Shown here piece by piece: positions 2,986 through 52,912 of a DNA stretch of 64,000 nucleotides. The translations under genes were made by a program, and so were the position numbers. Within the stretch, counting starts at the first letter, position 1, and every line of letters begins with the position of its first letter. This DNA is from Pandoraea pneumonica (lineage in GTDB: Bacteria; Pseudomonadota; Gammaproteobacteria; Burkholderiales; Burkholderiaceae), in contig NZ_CABPSK010000001.1 in the NCBI RefSeq assembly GCF_902459645.1, positions 620,001 to 684,000 on the forward strand. The letters are read 5' to 3'. Below the pieces are notes generated by a model, which did not search any database, was not told the origin of the DNA, and saw nothing but the letters and a program-made list of their open reading frames with translations.

Positions 2986-3013
2986 ATCGTTATATAAGTC
3001 GCTATATAGCGAC
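2986..3013 (+). promoter_or_regulatory. ModE-box-like operator
   Basis: The sequence reads ATCGTTATATA-N6-TATATAGCGAC. The published ModE consensus, as I recall it, is ATCGcTATATA-N6-TATATAaCGAT, so ten of eleven positions agree in each half. It contains a perfect 16-base palindrome at 2998-3013. It ends 30 bases before the GTG start at 3044, the right place for repression of the TonB receptor operon by molybdate-loaded ModE. The same 9-base left arm and 6-base spacing recur at 51061. No modE gene lies in the window. The whole 328-base gap 2716-3043 holds nothing else I recognise. Confidence 0.75.
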
Positions 3014-3043
3014 GAACAACAAGACGAAGAAGGGGACATAGCA

Positions 3044-5062
3044 GTGCGTTTTACGATGAAGAAGTTGTCCAAGCGTAAGCTCCCGCTGGTAGTCGCGGCA
3101 GCGATGTCGTCCACCGTCGGCTATGCCGCAGAAGAGCCGGTCTTCGAGCTAGGCCGCGTGGATGTGACCGCCAAGGCCGACCGCATCCCGGTCGGCACCC
3201 AAACGCTCGATGCCGAGCAGATCGAGCAGGCCAACCGCGTGACGGTCGGCGCCGCCCTGGACATGCTCCCGGGCGTGAACATCTCCAAAGTCGGCCCGCG
3301 TAACGAAGAAATGGTCTACGTGCGCGGCTTCGACATGCGACAAGTGCCGCTGCTCATCGACGGCATCCCTGTCTACGTGTCGTACGACGGCTACGTCGAC
3401 CTCGCGCGATTCACCACGTTCGACATCGGCACCATCGAAGTCCAGAAGGGCTACAGCTCCGTGCTGGCAGGCCCGAACACACTGGGCGGTGTGATCAATC
3501 TGGTGAGCCGCCGCCCGCAGAGCAAGTTCGAAGGCAACATCGGCGGTGGCCTCGTGTTCGACCGCCAGTTCGCCAACAACGGCTATCAGGGCAACTTCAA
3601 CATCGGCAGCAATCAAGGCCTGTGGTACTTCCAGATCAGCGGCTCGTATCTGGAACGCGATTTCTACACGTTGTCCGACGCCTTCAAGGGCACCTCCGCT
3701 CAAGCCCCGGGGCGGCGCAACAACTCGGACAATCGTGACAAGAAGATCAACGTCAAGATCGGTTTCACGCCGAACGCGACCGACGAATACTCGCTGAACT
3801 ACATCAATCAGGTCGGCGATAAGGGCAACCCGCCGTACGCCGGCACCGACCCGACGCAAAACATCCGCTACTGGCGCTGGCCGTACTGGGACAAGGAAAG
3901 CCTGTACTACATCTCGCGCACGCAACTGGGCAGCGACAGCTATTTGAAAGTGCGTGCCTATTACGACCGTTACAAAAACGGTCTGAGCATGTACGACGAC
4001 GCCACTTACTCGACGCAACTCAAGAAGTCCTCGTCCAACTCGTCTTACGACGATCACACGTGGGGTGCAAGCGCCGAAGTGGGCACGAAGCTCTTCACGG
4101 CCAACACGCTGAAGTTTGCGGCGCACATCAAGAACGACTATCACCACGAAATCAATCCGGGCAAACCGGATCAGCATTTCGAAGACGCCACGCTGTCGTT
4201 CGGTCTGGAAGACACGCACGAGTTCACCGACAAATTCTCGGTGCAAGGTGGCGTGAGCTACGACAAGCGCATCACGCGCCGTGCTGAAGACGTGAACGCC
4301 GCAAACCAGATTGTCGGCTTCCCGAAGGACAACGTCGACGCATGGAATCCGCAACTCGGCATGGTCTATAAAACCTCGCCGAGCGGCAAGTTGCATCTGG
4401 GTGTGGCTGAGAAGAGCCGCTTCCCCACGATCAAAGATCGCTACTCGTACCGCATGGGCACGGCGATTCCGAATGCGGGTCTGCGCCCGGAACACGCCAC
4501 CAACGTGGAAATCGGCTACAGCGAGCGTATTGCCCCGGGCACCATGGGCACGTTGAACCTGTTTTACAGCGACATCCGCGACTTGATTCAGGCCGCATCG
4601 ATCCCGGCCAGCGCTTGCAGCAGCCCGCCTTGCACGCAGATGCAAAACGTTGGGCACGTGGTGGCGCAGGGCATCGAGGCATCGGTCAATACCCAGATCG
4701 GCGACGACATCGAAATCGGCGGCAACTACACGTACATCAATCGTCAGAACCGCAGCGATCCGTCGATCGTGCTCACGGACGTGCCGCGCCACAAGCTGTT
4801 CCTGTACGGGAAGTGGAACATCACGTCGAAGGTCGCCGTGAGCGGCGACACGGAATTCACCTCGTCGCGCTTTAGCTCCAGCGACGGGCGACGCGTGGCA
4901 GCCGGATTCGGTATCGCCAACGCGAAGCTCGCGTGGAAGGTGGTGCACAACGTGACGGCCGAATTTGGCGTGCGCAATATCTTCGATCGCAACTACGCCT
5001 ATACCGAGGGGTACCCGGAACCGGGCCGTAACTACTACGTGAATCTGAATTACGCATTCTGA
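3044..5062 (+). CDS. TonB-dependent outer-membrane receptor (candidate oxyanion/metal uptake)
   Basis: This is an outer-membrane beta-barrel transporter energised by TonB. I start at GTG 3044 because GAAGAAGGGG sits 8 bases upstream; an ATG at 3056 is the alternative. A signal peptide covers about residues 1-27 (KKLSKRKLPLVVAAAMSSTVGYA). The plug domain follows (VTVGAALDMLPGVNISK, VYVRGFDMRQVPLLIDGIPV, VLAGPNTLGGVINLVSRRP), then a 22-strand barrel ending in the canonical terminal aromatic (NLNYAF). The 672-residue length fits siderophore-type receptors. The ligand cannot be read from the sequence. Because a ModE-like box precedes it and it shares a transcript with a periplasmic binding protein and a di-heme cytochrome, a molybdenum- or tungsten-related ligand is inferred. 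Confidence 0.9.
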   Translation: MRFTMKKLSKRKLPLVVAAAMSSTVGYAAEEPVFELGRVDVTAKADRIPVGTQTLDAEQIEQANRVTVGAALDMLPGVNISKVGPRNEEMVYVRGFDMRQVPLLIDGIPVYVSYDGYVDLARFTTFDIGTIEVQKGYSSVLAGPNTLGGVINLVSRRPQSKFEGNIGGGLVFDRQFANNGYQGNFNIGSNQGLWYFQISGSYLERDFYTLSDAFKGTSAQAPGRRNNSDNRDKKINVKIGFTPNATDEYSLNYINQVGDKGNPPYAGTDPTQNIRYWRWPYWDKESLYYISRTQLGSDSYLKVRAYYDRYKNGLSMYDDATYSTQLKKSSSNSSYDDHTWGASAEVGTKLFTANTLKFAAHIKNDYHHEINPGKPDQHFEDATLSFGLEDTHEFTDKFSVQGGVSYDKRITRRAEDVNAANQIVGFPKDNVDAWNPQLGMVYKTSPSGKLHLGVAEKSRFPTIKDRYSYRMGTAIPNAGLRPEHATNVEIGYSERIAPGTMGTLNLFYSDIRDLIQAASIPASACSSPPCTQMQNVGHVVAQGIEASVNTQIGDDIEIGGNYTYINRQNRSDPSIVLTDVPRHKLFLYGKWNITSKVAVSGDTEFTSSRFSSSDGRRVAAGFGIANAKLAWKVVHNVTAEFGVRNIFDRNYAYTEGYPEPGRNYYVNLNYAF

Positions 5063-5087
5063 ATCAGGTAACGAGAAGGAGCAGGGC

Positions 5088-6518
5088 ATGCAGGCAGTAG
5101 CAGGCAAGACGATTCGGGCGCTCACGTCGGCGGTATGGGTGGCACTGGCGGCACAGGTAGCGCTATCGGGCGGGGTAGCGCCCGCTATCGCGGCAGACGC
5201 GCCAACCACGGCCGCCGCGGCGAAACCGGCGAGTGCAACGCAACGCGAGACGCTCACGGTGCTCACGAGCTATCCGGAAGAAGTGGTCGCCACCTTCGAG
5301 CGTGCGTTCGAGAAACAGCATCCGGAGATCGCGCTGCAAATTCTGTGGCGTCAACATCGCGATGCCTACGACTACCTGCAAGGCCCGAAGCAGGGCGGGG
5401 TCGATGTTTATTGGTCTCCGGCTGTGCGCAACTTCGCCGATCTCGGGCAAGAAGGCTCCTTACGCAAGCTCGACGTCGACCTTACCGGCCTGCCGTCTCA
5501 TGTCGGCAAGTTCCGCATTTCCGATCCGGACGGACGTTTTGTCGCCTCGGAAATCGCGGGCTTCGGCTTCATGCTCGATCCGGCGGCGCTCGCTCGTCAG
5601 GGGCTGCCTGCGCCTAAGACGTGGCAGGACCTCACGCAGCCCAGGTATCGGGGACACATCATGTTCCCGGTGCCGAGCCGCGTGGGGTTCTCGCCCACGC
5701 TGCTCGACGTGGTGCTGCAAGCCGACGGCTGGGACAAAGGCTGGGCGCTACTCTCCGAGGCCGGCGCGAACTTTGTGTTTGCCGAGACGGGCGGTGCGTT
5801 CGCTAGCTTGTCGCATGGCATGCGCTCACCGATCTCGATTGCCGTCACCATCGATTTCTTTGCGAGTTCAGCGATTGCCAACGGTGCGCCGCTGACGTTC
5901 GTGTATCCGCCCAACACCGGATATTCCCCCGCGCATATCGGCATCTTGCGCGATACGCAGCATCTCGCCGCCGCCCGCACGTTCGTCACGTTCGTGCTGT
6001 CCGATGCCGGGCAGAAGCTGTTGTTTGCGCCGGACGTGCGCAAGCTGCCGGTGCGCCCGAGTGTGTATCGCGATGCGCCGAAGGGCACCTACGACCCGTT
6101 CGCGGCGAATGCTGCAACGGCTGGCGTGACGTATGAAGAGACGCTGGGGCTCGCACGCTACTCGCTCGATAACGCGTTGTTCGACGTATTCATCACGCGT
6201 CGCAAAGCAGAGCTCACGGAGGTATGGACGCGCTGGCATCAACTGGCCGGAACGGAAGGCAACGGCACCCCACGCCCGGCCGTGAATGTTGACACCGCGT
6301 GTCTTGAGAAAGCCCGCGCCCTGCTGACACAAGCCCCGATCGACGCCAACACCGCAGCCGACCCGGCATTACGCGCCACGTTCGACCGTCGGCGCCAAGA
6401 CCCGAAAGCGCAGACGCAAGCCACGGCGCTCGAGGCCACGTGGTCGCAGACATTGAACGGCCGCACGGCACAAGTGCGTGAATGGCTGGCCGATGGGGTG
6501 GTATGTTCGGGCAAATAA
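5088..6518 (+). CDS. Orphan periplasmic substrate-binding protein (FbpA/PgtC-like)
   Basis: This 476-residue protein starts 25 bases after the receptor with AGAAGGAG just before the ATG. A signal peptide ends near residue 36 (GVAPAIAADA). From about residue 53 it has the two-lobed fold of family-1 solute-binding proteins for Fe(III), phosphoglycerate or related ligands (LTVLTSYPEEVVATFERAF, VDVYWSP, GFGFMLDP, GHIMFPVPSRVGFSP, AAARTFVTFVLSDAGQKLLF). It is about 130 residues longer than ordinary members because of a helical C-terminal tail (residues about 350-476) with two cysteines. There is no permease or ATPase beside it, so it either shares a transporter encoded elsewhere or works only as a receptor partner. 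Its ligand is unknown. Confidence 0.85.
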   Translation: MQAVAGKTIRALTSAVWVALAAQVALSGGVAPAIAADAPTTAAAAKPASATQRETLTVLTSYPEEVVATFERAFEKQHPEIALQILWRQHRDAYDYLQGPKQGGVDVYWSPAVRNFADLGQEGSLRKLDVDLTGLPSHVGKFRISDPDGRFVASEIAGFGFMLDPAALARQGLPAPKTWQDLTQPRYRGHIMFPVPSRVGFSPTLLDVVLQADGWDKGWALLSEAGANFVFAETGGAFASLSHGMRSPISIAVTIDFFASSAIANGAPLTFVYPPNTGYSPAHIGILRDTQHLAAARTFVTFVLSDAGQKLLFAPDVRKLPVRPSVYRDAPKGTYDPFAANAATAGVTYEETLGLARYSLDNALFDVFITRRKAELTEVWTRWHQLAGTEGNGTPRPAVNVDTACLEKARALLTQAPIDANTAADPALRATFDRRRQDPKAQTQATALEATWSQTLNGRTAQVREWLADGVVCSGK

Positions 6519-7927
6519 AGCGGGAGAGCGCACCGAAGCGGACGGTACGGCTGGCCGCATTCACGATGAGCGTGGCTGCCAGCTTGCTTTCGCCTGTCGC
6601 AATGTCGCAGTCGATGACAGCGCCCGTCACTCCGCCTGTCACACCGCCTATCAAACCGCTCGTCACGCGTGACGCCTTTGGCATGCCGATGGCGTTCGTG
6701 GCAGACGATGACGCGGCGCTTGCGCAGTTCGCAGAGGGTCGATCGCTGTTTCGGCAGAGTTGGGTGGTCTATCCGTCTGCGGACCGGCGTATCGCTGGCC
6801 TCGGTCCGGTCTACAACCAGATTTCGTGTATCGCCTGTCACGTGAAGTTCGGACGTGGCAACGCACCGCTCGGACCCGACGAAGCACCACGCGGTCTGCT
6901 CGTACGGCTAAGCGTGCCGGGCAGCACGCCAACGGGGGCGCCGCGCGAGCATCCGAACTACGGCGACCAACTCGGCGACAAGGCCATTCCCGGGGTGCCC
7001 GCGGAAGGGCAGGTGCGCGTGCATTACACCGAGCGTGTCGAGCGGATGGCGGGCGGCGAGACGGTTCACTTGCGCGCACCGCAATTGGTGTTCAGCGATC
7101 TGGCATTTGGTCCGCTAGGGCACGGCACGATGACGTCGGCCCGCGTCGGCTCGCCGGTCTATGGTCTTGGCTGGCTTGAGGCCATTGACGATGCCACGCT
7201 GCACGCATTGGCTGCGCGTCGTTTGCCGGACGGCGTGCGTGGGCGCGTCAATCGCGTTTGGGATGTGGCGACGAAACGCCAAGTTGTCGGGCGCTTCGGC
7301 TGGAAAGCGAATCAGCCGTCGATACGGCAGCAGATTGCGAGTGCCTTCGTGGGCGATCTCGGCATCACGTCGCCGCTGTTTCCACACAAGACTTGCCCGG
7401 CAGCGCAGACCGCCTGCCGCGCTGCGCCCACCGATGGGCAACCCGATCTGACAAGCCCCCAACTCGACGCCATCGAGTATTTCCAGCGCACGCTGGAGGT
7501 GCCACCACGCCGCGACGTCGAGGACGTGCAAGTTAAACGTGGCGAGCGGCTGTTCGCGCAAACCGGCTGCGCGGCCTGTCACACGCCAAGCCTGCGCACT
7601 GGGGCGTTCCCGCCGCTGGCAGCGATGGCCAATCGCGATATCGCGCCATACACGGACCTATTGCTGCATGACATGGGGCAAGGGCTCGCGGATGGTCGCC
7701 CCGACTTTCTCGCGGGGCCACGCGACTGGCGAACGCCGCCGTTGTGGGGGCTGGGGTTGGCGGCGCTGGTGAATCCCGACGCGACGTATCTTCACGACGG
7801 CCGCGCACGCACGGTGCAGGAAGCGATTCTTTGGCACGGCGGCGAAGGACACGTCGCACGCGAGCGTTATCGCGCAATGTCGCCGCAGGCCCGCGCAGAC
7901 CTGCTGCGATTCTTAATGTCGCTTTGA
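6503..7927 (+). CDS. Di-heme c-type cytochrome, COG3488/di-heme oxidoreductase family
   Basis: This is a periplasmic two-heme cytochrome c. In the 474-residue product, CXXCH sites are at about residues 109-113 (CIACH) and 356-360 (CAACH), the spacing typical of the so-called thiol oxidoreductase or di-heme oxidoreductase family related to MauG/CcpA. A Lys/Arg-rich n-region and hydrophobic core form the signal peptide. The gene overlaps the end of the binding-protein gene by about 16 bases (or 37 with the ATG at 6482), so the two are translationally coupled. Relatives elsewhere occur in iron-uptake operons with imelysins. A role in oxidising or reducing the bound ligand or metal is inference. 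Confidence 0.88.
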   Translation: MFGQIKRESAPKRTVRLAAFTMSVAASLLSPVAMSQSMTAPVTPPVTPPIKPLVTRDAFGMPMAFVADDDAALAQFAEGRSLFRQSWVVYPSADRRIAGLGPVYNQISCIACHVKFGRGNAPLGPDEAPRGLLVRLSVPGSTPTGAPREHPNYGDQLGDKAIPGVPAEGQVRVHYTERVERMAGGETVHLRAPQLVFSDLAFGPLGHGTMTSARVGSPVYGLGWLEAIDDATLHALAARRLPDGVRGRVNRVWDVATKRQVVGRFGWKANQPSIRQQIASAFVGDLGITSPLFPHKTCPAAQTACRAAPTDGQPDLTSPQLDAIEYFQRTLEVPPRRDVEDVQVKRGERLFAQTGCAACHTPSLRTGAFPPLAAMANRDIAPYTDLLLHDMGQGLADGRPDFLAGPRDWRTPPLWGLGLAALVNPDATYLHDGRARTVQEAILWHGGEGHVARERYRAMSPQARADLLRFLMSL

Positions 7928-7984: not shown

Positions 7985-8920
7985 TTATGCGCCAGCAGCG
8001 GGCGCCCGGTTCGCCTGTGCCATTTCCATCGACACGCTTTTCGCGACGTCGATGAATGCGCGCAGTGCGGCGGGCATGCGCACGCGGCTCGGGTGGTAGA
8101 GATAAAAGCCGGGCGTGAGCGGCGACCAGGCTTCGAGCAGCGGCACCAGACGCCCTGACTGCAAGTGGGGCTTCATCCAGTCTTCCGTCCAGACGGTCAC
8201 GCCCAGTCCATCAAGCGCGGCTTGCAACGCGACGGCACAGTCGTTGACGATCAGCGTGCCGGTGACGTTGATGTCGAACCACTGCCCATCCTTGGCAAAT
8301 TCCCAGCTATATACGCCGGTCTGCCCGGCGCGACGCCAGTTGATGCACTTGTGGCGATGCAGGTCGTGTGGCGTTTCCGGACGGCCGTATTTGCTCAGGT
8401 ACTCGGGCGAGGCGACGGCAATCTGCCGCAGGTCGGGGCCGACGCGCACGGCGACCATATCCTGATCGACGTGTCGGCCCAGCCGAATTCCGGCGTCGAA
8501 TCCGCGCGCGACGATATCCCCAAGGCTTTCGTCGCTCGTGAGATCGAGCACCACGTCGGGGTATTGCTCCTGAAACACACCGAGCATCGGCTGGAGCAAA
8601 TGGATGATCGCCATTTGCGGCGCGCACACCTTCAGCGTGCCCGCTGGCCGGTCGCGATAGTGATTCACCTCATCGAGCGCCGCACTGAATTCCACAAGCA
8701 ACGGCTGCATGCGTGCGAAAAGCGCGTTACCGGCGTCAGTCAGGCTGATGCTGCGGGTGGTCCGGTTGAACAACCGCACCCCCAGACGTTCTTCCAACGA
8801 TCGAATCGTCTGACTCAGTGCTGAGGGCGAGACGGCCAGTGCATTCGCCGCGCGCGCGAACGCGCCTTGCTCGGCGACCGTCACGAACGCCCGGATATCT
8901 GCAAATTCGCTGCCTCGCAT
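7985..8920 (-). CDS. LysR-family transcriptional regulator
   Basis: This 311-residue regulator has the N-terminal winged helix-turn-helix (ADIRAFVTVAEQGAFARAANALAVSPSALSQTIRSLEERLGVRLFNRTTRSISLT, about residues 7-66) and a C-terminal periplasmic-binding-like effector domain. It belongs to the large DsdC/GcvA-like group with the SPLTPGFYLYHPSRVRMPAALRAFID C-terminal motif. It is convergent with the cytochrome gene and divergent from the amidohydrolase, which starts 230 bases away and is its most likely target. The effector is unknown. Confidence 0.93.
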   Translation of the reverse strand: MRGSEFADIRAFVTVAEQGAFARAANALAVSPSALSQTIRSLEERLGVRLFNRTTRSISLTDAGNALFARMQPLLVEFSAALDEVNHYRDRPAGTLKVCAPQMAIIHLLQPMLGVFQEQYPDVVLDLTSDESLGDIVARGFDAGIRLGRHVDQDMVAVRVGPDLRQIAVASPEYLSKYGRPETPHDLHRHKCINWRRAGQTGVYSWEFAKDGQWFDINVTGTLIVNDCAVALQAALDGLGVTVWTEDWMKPHLQSGRLVPLLEAWSPLTPGFYLYHPSRVRMPAALRAFIDVAKSVSMEMAQANRAPAAGA

Positions 8921-51039: not shown

Positions 51040-51060
51040 GACAGTCTGATATATGATATT

Positions 51061-51084
51061 CGTTATATAACCATCTATATAACG
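51061..51084 (+). promoter_or_regulatory. ModE-box-like operator (second copy)
   Basis: CGTTATATA-N6-TATATAACG is a perfect inverted repeat with a 6-base spacer. It matches the core of the recalled ModE consensus and repeats the left arm and spacing of the site at 2986-3013. It touches the ribosome-binding site (GGAG at 51083-51086) of the binding-protein gene, so a bound repressor would block transcription of that gene and likely of the divergent Cys-rich gene. Confidence 0.8.
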
Positions 51085-51095
51085 GAGTTCCGGCT

Positions 51096-52046
51096 GTGAA
51101 GAAGTGGATTTCTGCGCGCGTCGTCGCGACGGTGAAGCATACCCTGTGTCTCGCGGCGGCGGCGCTGGTTGTCGCACACGCCAAGGCGGACGACACGTTT
51201 CGCGTGGCCTACGCGGGGTCGATGGGCGTGGTGATGGATAAAGCCTTGGGGCCGGCTTTTGCCCAGCGCGAGCATGTCACGTATCAGGGGCAAGGCGAGG
51301 GTGCCTATGGGTTGGCCCGCCTGCTCGCCTCGGGGCGTTCCAGTGCCGACGTCTTCGTATCGATCACCCCCGGGCCGATGGCCATTCTCAAAGATGCCGG
51401 TCTGATCGACGACGCCGTGCCGGTCGCCAGCACACGTATGGTCATCGCGTACAACCCGAAGGGGCGCTTCGGCGACGCGCTGCGACTGGCCGGTAGCGAC
51501 GCATCGCATCCGGCGTGGTGGCAAGTGTTGCAAACACCGGGTTTGCGTTTCGGGCGGACCGACCCTGCGACCGATCCGCAGGGCCAGAACATCGTGTTCA
51601 CGATGTTGCTCGCGCAGAAGTATTACCACCAGCCGGGGCTCGCGCAGTCGGTGCTTGGCGATATTCGGAATCCGCAGCAGGTGTTCGGCGAAGGCGGGCT
51701 GCTCACGCGGCTGGAAGCGGGGCAGGTCGATGCGGCGTCGGGGTATGAGAGCGCCACTCGCTCGGCGAAGCTGCCGTATATCGCCTTGCCTGACGAGCTC
51801 AATCTGAGCAACCCTGCCTTCGCCAAGGCTTGGTACGACACCGTTGACTTCTCGCTGCCCGGCGCGGACGGCAAAACGAAAACCGTGCGACCGCAGCCGC
51901 TGGTGTTCTATGCGGCCAAGCTTAAAAACGCCGCCCATCCCGAAGCCGCCGATCGATTCATCGCGTTCATGACGTCGGCCCAAGGCCAGCAGTTGTTCGA
52001 TGCGAACGGCTACGGCCAGCCAAAGGGCGAGCCGCTGTATCACTGA
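51096..52046 (+). CDS. Periplasmic molybdate/tungstate-type binding protein (WtpA/ModA-like)
   Basis: This encodes 316 residues from a GTG at 51096 with GGAG 8 bases upstream. The signal peptide ends near residue 31 (VAHAKADD). The oxyanion-binding fold of the WtpA/ModA group is visible: FRVAYAGSMGVVMDKALGPAFAQ, GEGAYGLARLLASGRSSADVFVSITPGPM, RMVIAYNPKGRF, GRTDPATDPQGQNIVFTMLLAQKYY and DAASGYESA. Ligand serines or threonines occur early and in the GRTDP loop. It is followed 32 bases later by a ModB-like permease. The ModE-like box at its start supports molybdate or tungstate as ligand. Confidence 0.85.
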   Translation: MKKWISARVVATVKHTLCLAAAALVVAHAKADDTFRVAYAGSMGVVMDKALGPAFAQREHVTYQGQGEGAYGLARLLASGRSSADVFVSITPGPMAILKDAGLIDDAVPVASTRMVIAYNPKGRFGDALRLAGSDASHPAWWQVLQTPGLRFGRTDPATDPQGQNIVFTMLLAQKYYHQPGLAQSVLGDIRNPQQVFGEGGLLTRLEAGQVDAASGYESATRSAKLPYIALPDELNLSNPAFAKAWYDTVDFSLPGADGKTKTVRPQPLVFYAAKLKNAAHPEAADRFIAFMTSAQGQQLFDANGYGQPKGEPLYH

Positions 52047-52078
52047 GGGCGGTTGAGGCGTGTTGAAAGGGATGCGTG

Positions 52079-52912
52079 ATGCGTAGCGCGCACAAGGCGC
52101 TTAACTCGCGTAAGGCACCGCGCGCCGTGGCAGGAGTGGTGGCGCGCTTAGGCGAGGTCGTGACTTGGGCGCTGCTCGCGATTCCGTTTGCCGCGCTGGT
52201 GGCGGAAACCCCATGGCGTCATTTCCGGCTCGCATACGGCGATTGGGACGCCATTGCTGTGTCGCTCGGGCTGTCGTGTCTGTCGATGGCGATCATCGTC
52301 GCGTTGGGCACGCGCGTGGCCTTTTGGCTGGCGTCGACACGGTCTCGCGCGGCGCGCGTCGCAGAGGTGCTGGTGCTCGTGGCGCTGATGACCCCGCCGC
52401 TCGCCATGGGCATCCTGCTCGCCACCGCCTATGGGCCGGTCGGCCCCTTCGGCACGTTGCTCTCGCGCGCGGGCATCCTGCTGGGTAACAACGCGCCTGC
52501 CTTCGTTCTCTCTCAGGTCTACGGCGGGTTGCCGTATTTCATCCTCGCCGCGCGTGCCGCCTTCGAGGCCGTACCCCCGGTACTGCCGATGGCCGCCAGT
52601 ACGTTAGGCGCGACGCCGTGGCGCGTCTTCCGACATGTGACGTTGCCGCTCGCGCGCGGCGGCCTCACGGCGGGTCTTGTCATCGCGTGGGTGCGTGTGA
52701 TCGGCGAGTTCGGCATCGTGATGATCTTCGCGTACTTTCCGCAGGGCATTCCGGTCAAGCTGTACGTCAATTTGCAGAACGATGGGTTGGGGGCTGTCTA
52801 CGCGCTCCTTTGGTTATTGCTCGTGGTGGCGTTGCCGCTGCCGATTGTCGTGCTGATGCGAGCACGGCGCGGTGACCGGCGAACCGTCGGCGACGATGAC
52901 ACGGTGTACTGA
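52079..52912 (+). CDS. ModB/CysT-like ABC permease
   Basis: This 277-residue inner-membrane protein has about six transmembrane segments. The ATG at 52079 has AAAGGG about 7 bases upstream; a GTG at 52076 is also possible. The EAA loop reads AASTLGATPWRVFRHVTLPLARGGLTAGLVIAWVRVIGEFGIVMIFAYFPQGIPVKLYV, typical of molybdate, tungstate and sulfate permeases. No ATPase gene follows; the next gene is an esterase. The ATPase must come from elsewhere in the genome. Confidence 0.88.
   Translation: MRSAHKALNSRKAPRAVAGVVARLGEVVTWALLAIPFAALVAETPWRHFRLAYGDWDAIAVSLGLSCLSMAIIVALGTRVAFWLASTRSRAARVAEVLVLVALMTPPLAMGILLATAYGPVGPFGTLLSRAGILLGNNAPAFVLSQVYGGLPYFILAARAAFEAVPPVLPMAASTLGATPWRVFRHVTLPLARGGLTAGLVIAWVRVIGEFGIVMIFAYFPQGIPVKLYVNLQNDGLGAVYALLWLLLVVALPLPIVVLMRARRGDRRTVGDDDTVY

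Follow-up and report, generated by a model that had tools for sequence, protein, structure and literature searches.

A ModE-type box before a TonB receptor, binding protein and di-haem cytochrome operon in Pandoraea pneumonica points to a probable outer-membrane route for molybdenum acquisition

A three-gene operon preceded by a ModE-type box lies in a 64,000-nucleotide stretch of the Pandoraea pneumonica genome (assembly GCF_902459645.1, contig NZ_CABPSK010000001.1, positions 620,001 to 684,000, forward strand), referred to below as the window and numbered from its first letter. The three genes encode a TonB-dependent outer-membrane receptor, an orphan periplasmic binding protein and a di-haem cytochrome c of the DHOR family (Table 1). 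An initial annotation made from the sequence alone had placed the box 30 bases before a TonB receptor, followed by an orphan binding protein and an overlapping di-haem cytochrome c, and the coordinates, open reading frames (ORFs) and profile families agree with this description. From the end of the box to the GTG at 3044, which is our choice of start codon for the receptor, the gap is 30 nt (the box thus occupying the bases 58 to 31 nt upstream of the GTG), and the binding-protein and DHOR frames overlap by 37 nt, provided that DHOR starts at 6482. Among the window ORFs no permease or ATPase gene was seen beside the binding protein, which leaves the operon without a complete ABC importer; in related loci, too, DHOR rather than ABC importer genes comes after the binding protein. 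Between 2700 and 8100 there was no Rfam match that would indicate a riboswitch, and no sigma-70 consensus promoter on the plus strand.

Table 1. Features of the window discussed in the text.
Feature	Position	Strand	Remarks
ModE-type box ATCGTTATATA-N6-TATATAGCGAC	2986..3013	.	19/20 consensus positions
TonB-dependent outer-membrane receptor, 672 aa	3044..5062	+	GTG start, profile matches
Orphan periplasmic binding protein, 476 aa, SBP_bac_6 / FbpA-AfuA fold with C-terminal helical extension	5088..6518	+	
Di-haem cytochrome c, DHOR (DUF1111) family, 481 aa	6482..7927	+	CXXCH at 116-120 and 363-367
LysR gene, after DHOR	7985-8920	minus	
Second ModE-type box, 17/20	51059..51086	.	9 nt before WtpA-like gene
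WtpA-like binding protein (SBP_bac_11)	51096..52046	+	below NCBIfam cut-offs
ModB/WtpB-like permease	52076..52912	+	below NCBIfam cut-offs

The sequence ATCGTTATATAAGTCGCTATATAGCGAC at 2986-3013 is the sole match in the 64 kb, at up to three mismatches, to the pattern given in the initial annotation, and such a match occurred in 0/100 shuffled windows. Compared with the ModE consensus ATCGNTATATA-N6-TATATANCGAT, as printed in the accessible portion of PMC545781, the box has one mismatch and is the top ModE-type site found in the 5.85-Mb genome, where three sites lie within three mismatches of the consensus and the reversed-pattern control gave none. A full-length ModE, the regulator presupposed by the initial annotation, is encoded in this genome (L057:12025-12912); it carries a helix-turn-helix (HTH) and two Mop domains and scores above the TIGR00637 cut-off. 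A modABC set lies on contig C4, in which ModA and ModB both exceed the cut-offs of two NCBIfam models and ModC exceeds that of TIGR02142, and the box upstream of modA scores 15/20, weaker than that of the operon. Across a sample of the genus, ModE was present in 31/32 genomes, the sole exception being a 1.2-Mb genome, and the receptor gene is accessory (7/32 genomes), with boxes of 16-20/20 and variable spacer before all seven receptor genes. Besides its full-length ModE, the Pandoraea pneumonica genome also encodes a short ModE-like protein of 142 aa (L058:6492-6920) about 2 kb from modABC.

The gene order read from this one locus recurs elsewhere. Scanning genome contigs with an alignment of the binding protein gave 85 candidate stretches and 59 confirmed loci, mostly proteobacterial, with many metagenome-assembled genomes among them and one labelled Verrucomicrobiaceae; the hosts include Pandoraea, Methylobacter, Methylobacillus, Gallionella-type iron oxidisers, Zoogloea, Azospirillum, Derxia, Azoarcus, Oceanobacter, Billgrantia and others. 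The triad of receptor, binding protein and DHOR is complete in 52/59 loci, and in 45 the three genes stand in that order on one strand. Of the seven incomplete loci, three (L092, L097, L105) are on contigs that end in or just past the binding-protein gene, one (L081) is on a 10.6-kb contig with the receptor on another contig of the same genome, and in Derxia gummosa (L108) the receptor gene is about 11 kb off, beside modD-modC-modB-modA and a ModE-like gene; L071 and L106 are the remaining two. Order-wide, among 250 genomes, all eight with the core binding protein also have the clade receptor, which is found in 15/250 (hypergeometric 1.9e-11). Triad DHOR proteins score 638-694 bits versus at most 599 for every other DHOR among the matches listed, a gap that arises partly because several of them are rows of the profile. 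A sister clade of binding proteins at 30-34% identity, with a receptor or DHOR in 0/12 loci fetched, was used as the control.

Conservation of the box was evaluated in 58 promoter units (46 before TonB genes and 12 before binding-protein genes), from which receptors cut by contig ends were dropped and in which start codons were estimated, such that boxes at the estimated start (e.g. L116) may be under-scored. Scores of at least 14, 15, 16 and 17 of 20 were reached in 41, 34, 23 and 16 promoters, compared with means of 1.90, 0.44, 0.07 and 0.01 units for 150 permuted palindromes; the largest single permutation gave 15 units at the threshold of 15, presumably from a palindrome that closely resembles the true half-site. 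Among the remaining ORFs of these loci, 8/364 scored at least 15. In four Azospirillum-type loci with the receptor on the opposite strand (L100, L102, L111, L115), boxes stand both before the TonB gene (15-18/20) and before the binding-protein gene (15-16/20). A box of at least 15 occurs anywhere in the locus in 40/59 triad loci, and the control loci of the sister clade (n=12) held none above 13/20. The expectation in the initial annotation that the box would be retained is thus borne out in part: with 34/58 promoters at 15/20 or better its loss is not general, and 17/58 are without a clear box by this scoring.

Within about 9 kb on each side, or to the contig end, a mod gene is present in 30 of the 59 loci, 29 being the safer figure because one locus (L115) counts by way of a partial ModB-like permease only. 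These comprise modE in 24 loci, modA, modB and modC together in 22, and modD in five; a FecCD permease is present in five loci and a SulP permease in three. The chance level for this linkage is given by the 12 control loci alone, two of which pass the loose ModB cut-off through weak ModB-like permeases, with no other mod match among the twelve. NCBIfam confirmed the names for one modE-modA-modB-modC set, one Mop and one ModD. In nine loci (L065, L066, L067, L069, L072, L075, L077, L078, L079) modE and the receptor gene are divergently oriented, 201-382 nt apart. For both FecCD permeases tested, HI1471 (MolB) was the top solved relative (E 4.6e-59 and 5.1e-60), and for the binding protein beside one of them 4pag was the best match and MolA (HI_1472) the third. 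ModE-like genes were found in 50/50 genomes searched for these loci, with best matches at or below 3.1e-21 and 25/50 over the cut-off; by comparison, 142/250 genomes of the order have ModE at E≤1e-18. This linkage to modE, modABC, modD, mop and MolB-like importers is a line of evidence independent of the box for the interpretation first offered.

Receptors were also sampled by the TonB profile alone. With 250 genomes searched at the level of the order (E≤1e-130) and 398 at that of the phylum (E≤1e-180), receptors came from 20 distinct genomes; four of the 20 (G000, G037, G072, G196) are rows of the profile. Mod genes lie within about 7 kb of nine receptors (G039, G058, G120, G159, G235, G417, G516, G703, G490); six proteins from six of these nine genomes were checked and their names confirmed, namely ModD in G058 and G490, ModE in G120, G159 and G417, and ModA in G703. 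The ModE-like protein of G516 is 128 aa long, has the HTH only and falls just below the cut-off. FecCD permeases near three more receptors (G093, G133, G196) bring the count to 12/20, the G196 permease being one of those tested above and the other two about 50% identical to it, and a binding protein-DHOR pair near five more (G000, G025, G037, G072, G487) brings it to 17/20; no partner was in view for G126, on a 5.2-kb contig, G142 and G202. These results imply that the association centres on the receptor, with the binding protein and DHOR as one of several partner sets. The G490 locus (L151:7125-13607) begins with an 18/20 box followed on the same strand by a Peripla_BP_2 protein, a FecCD permease with HI1471 as its top solved relative, an ABC ATPase-like stretch, a methyltransferase, ModD and the TonB receptor, with no binding protein-DHOR pair of the present type, and is apparently a complete uptake operon for a molybdenum chelate without these two genes.

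Profiles for the TonB plug (PF07715) and barrel (PF00593) both match the window's receptor above cut-off, and the solved structures closest to it by profile are those of the colicin I receptor and ferric-enterobactin receptors, with B12, haem and pyoverdine receptors next. The AlphaFold model of the binding protein (pLDDT 88) resembles in fold hexose-phosphate (AfuA, VcA0625), pyridoxal phosphate (PLP), ferric and metal-citrate (MctA) binding proteins; in NCBIfam it matched no modA or WtpA model, and three models of 2-aminoethylphosphonate-type binding proteins matched, all below cut-off. In FbpA-type proteins adjacent tyrosines bind Fe(III). With a solved ferric-binding protein as reference, the residues aligned with its Tyr-Tyr pair, in the 44 of 60 sequences that the alignment covered, were F257 (44/44) and F258 (42/44, with two Gln), and because Phe-Phe replaces Tyr-Tyr we would not expect the protein to bind iron in the manner of FbpA. 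The cytochrome matches PF06537 at E 5.1e-86 and is the only gene of its family found in the genome; both CXXCH motifs are invariant in 45/45 aligned sequences, as are H396, H438 and H452. Its model (pLDDT 84) gave weak fold matches only, to hydrazine synthase and a di-haem peroxidase.

ModE-type control and an association with molybdenum acquisition are supported by the computation, and box conservation, the presence of ModE and the mod linkage uphold the proposal of the initial annotation that this is an outer-membrane uptake route for a molybdenum or tungsten species. We consider it probable that the operon is a ModE-controlled outer-membrane route for molybdenum, most likely for an organic molybdenum complex, with steps for the binding protein and DHOR as follows. 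Under molybdenum limitation, repression by ModE-molybdate at 2986-3013 would be lifted, if regulation runs in that direction, and the TonB receptor would import the metal, most likely as a Mo(VI) complex with an organic ligand of the catecholate or citrate kind. In the periplasm this complex may then be captured by the binding protein, and DHOR could free the metal, either by changing its redox state or by oxidising the ligand. Such a role for DHOR is plausible only by analogy, because DHOR-family proteins accompany imelysin proteins in iron-uptake operons. Molybdate would be handed over to the cytoplasm by a separate importer, here ModABC or the WtpAB-like pair of the window, and elsewhere ModABC, a MolB-like FecCD ABC transporter or possibly SulP. 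No ATPase ORF was seen beside the WtpAB-like pair at 51096-52912, and we presume that 51059-52912 is a sister member of the ModE regulon. A broader proposal, which we offer tentatively and hold as somewhat less than evenly balanced, is that the operon represents a missing outer-membrane route for molybdenum complexes: a ModE-controlled TonB clade for molybdenum chelates (molybdophores), spread over several proteobacterial classes and served by interchangeable inner-membrane partners (ModABC, MolBC-like, SulP), here with a dedicated binding protein and di-haem enzyme that would release the metal from the chelator within the periplasm.

Several observations weigh against a molybdenum route. Most of the solved structures related to the receptor are receptors for iron-siderophores, B12 and haem, and its top NCBIfam subfamily, below cut-off, is of haem type; the closest solved relatives of the binding protein bind sugar phosphates, PLP, ferric iron or metal-citrate, and its single molybdenum-type match is weak (4kd5, E 1.6e-4). 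Seventeen of the 58 promoters score below 14/20, with nothing similar to the box in L074, L082, L088 and L092 and a 13/20 palindrome only in A. brasilense-type loci, and mod-gene ORFs outside the triad promoters, many of them operon-internal, reach 15 in 4/115 cases. No mod gene is in range in 29/59 loci, including all four other Pandoraea loci, and 24/59 are without a mod, FecCD or SulP gene; the type of match on which L115 is counted is also seen in the controls. The best ModE-like frames of the five Methylobacillus genomes searched are just 118-152 aa long, and G202 has neither a ModE match at 1e-18 nor a box, despite its receptor. Related genomes, moreover, do not count as independent.

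A palindrome arisen by chance, before an operon unrelated to molybdenum, would be allowed if the single-genome evidence stood alone, but this reading is contradicted by conservation, linkage and controls, and we reject it as exceedingly improbable in view of the shuffles, the genome scan, the promoter conservation, and the ORF and sister-clade controls. An operon for iron or an iron chelate brought under molybdenum control, for instance because nitrogenase or other molybdoenzymes need iron, would accommodate the mostly iron-related kinship of the receptor and binding protein, and iron-uptake operons that combine DHOR/DUF1111 proteins with imelysin proteins have been described (PMC3143127, in the part accessible). 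Fur-like sites of at least 11/18 occur in 28/58 promoters against a permuted mean of 19.6 (sd 4.8), of at least 12 in 10 against 5.2 (2.7) and of at least 13 in four against 0.83 (1.07), and the window itself has a 12/18 match 239 nt upstream of the receptor start. Yet no promoter reaches 14/18 (0/58; permuted mean 0.09), whereas ModE-type boxes of at least 15/20 stand in 34/58, the ferric Tyr-Tyr pair is Phe-Phe in the binding protein, and the operon is linked to mod, modD and mop genes, all of which makes the iron explanation decidedly unlikely. Fur was not adopted as the main control, given a weak excess up to 13/18 and none at 14, and on the computed side this bears on the concern of the initial annotation that expression might follow iron. 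The best Zur match in the window scored 10, in a scan run without a permutation control.

Two further readings concern which metal is taken up and in what form. ModE and the Mod/Mol importers generally separate molybdenum and tungsten poorly, and the sister operon at 51096 is WtpA-like, which would suit tungstate as the substrate, or molybdenum and tungsten without preference; the sequences hold nothing that separates the two metals, and the hosts include Azospirillum, Derxia and Azoarcus, genera with nitrogen fixers, which need molybdenum, such that we regard this as rather unlikely. Alternatively, the receptor might import molybdate or tungstate as the free anion, or a thio-form (thiomolybdate, for example), with no organic chelate, and DHOR might oxidise or otherwise process the anion. 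The neighbours are indeed molybdate importers, no chelator-synthesis genes were recognised among the shared neighbour clusters inspected, most of which are without annotation, and the hosts include Gallionella, Sideroxydans and methanotrophs, which live at oxic-anoxic boundaries; TonB receptors, on the other hand, are as a rule reserved for complexes that are bulky or very scarce. We judge a free anion unlikely, if worth keeping in mind, and a chelate the likelier substrate than free molybdate, because the receptor resembles siderophore receptors (its top solved relatives being the colicin I and ferric-enterobactin receptors), because some members of its family are paired with FecCD importers, the class whose cargo is siderophores and B12, and also because Azotobacter vinelandii is reported to make molybdenum-binding compounds whose complexes are available for uptake (PMC3440940, in excerpt). 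The ligand itself is one that we infer.

The usual view is that molybdate needs no help to cross the outer membrane. ModABC, MolABC (HI1470-1472) and WtpABC, which share the kind of regulator site and the neighbourhoods described here, and to whose HI1471 the permeases near some receptors are closest among solved structures, act at the inner membrane, whereas the present operon contributes a receptor at the outer membrane, together with a further binding protein and a cytochrome. TonB siderophore uptake of the CirA (colicin I receptor) and ferric-enterobactin type employs the same receptor family, in which the nearest solved relatives lie, and likewise places a periplasmic binding protein downstream of the receptor, but the operon here has a ModE-type site and mod linkage, and its binding protein is of SBP_bac_6 rather than Peripla_BP_2 type with no permease beside it. 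The EfeUOB and imelysin-DHOR iron operons (PMC3143127) share with it the DHOR cytochrome and a periplasmic metal-binding protein in a metal-uptake operon; unlike them, it has no recognised imelysin or Ftr1 gene and possesses a TonB receptor and a ModE-type box. An outer-membrane molybdate step is likewise found in the type VI secretion system (T6SS)-ModA-IcmP system of P. aeruginosa, which differs in using a secreted ModA and outer-membrane IcmP, with no TonB receptor named in the accessible sections of PMC8602904 and PMC11734730; it was the only outer-membrane molybdenum step in the literature reached. A 2016 review, in the portion available, lists complexes of Fe, Zn, Co and Ni as taken up in a TonB-dependent manner and assigns molybdenum to ModABC (PMC4965479). 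We found no literature on a ModE-controlled TonB receptor in a limited library where 'ModE' is hard to search, letter case being ignored, and with regulon databases outside the search, and an earlier in-silico prediction may exist; nor was a receptor for Azotobacter-type molybdenum complexes found in the literature reached. The gene set provides a concrete, testable candidate for such a receptor in laboratory-tractable genera, puts a cytochrome into molybdenum acquisition, and could assign a function to receptors and DHOR proteins currently named for iron or unnamed.

Further genes were observed around the related loci. In Methylobacillus, the gene immediately after DHOR encodes a SulP-family permease (L040:3807-5450, L091:11609-13234, L119:11773-13413), a candidate inner-membrane partner. 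A family of outer-membrane barrels occurs in five loci (L072:13541-15159, L071, L078, L079, L113), and mod genes are present in four of these; the members from L072 and L079, the two that were tested, are of Alginate_exp type, and with an 18/20 box just upstream in L072 these barrels are possibly a second outer-membrane channel under ModE. A Methylophilaceae metagenome-assembled genome (L074, 3467-6132 and 6883-11546) carries a second binding protein-DHOR pair, its binding protein 35% identical, directly upstream of a full triad. DUF2325 genes lie near the operon in L042 (10317-11648) and in L081 (2928-3995; contig of L038), with clustered relatives in L098 and L102. In three Gallionella/Sideroxydans loci the next ORF found after DHOR, on the same strand, is a porin-type gene (L069:11663-12862, L075:11893-13017, L077:11596-12735), an assignment established by Pfam match in L069.

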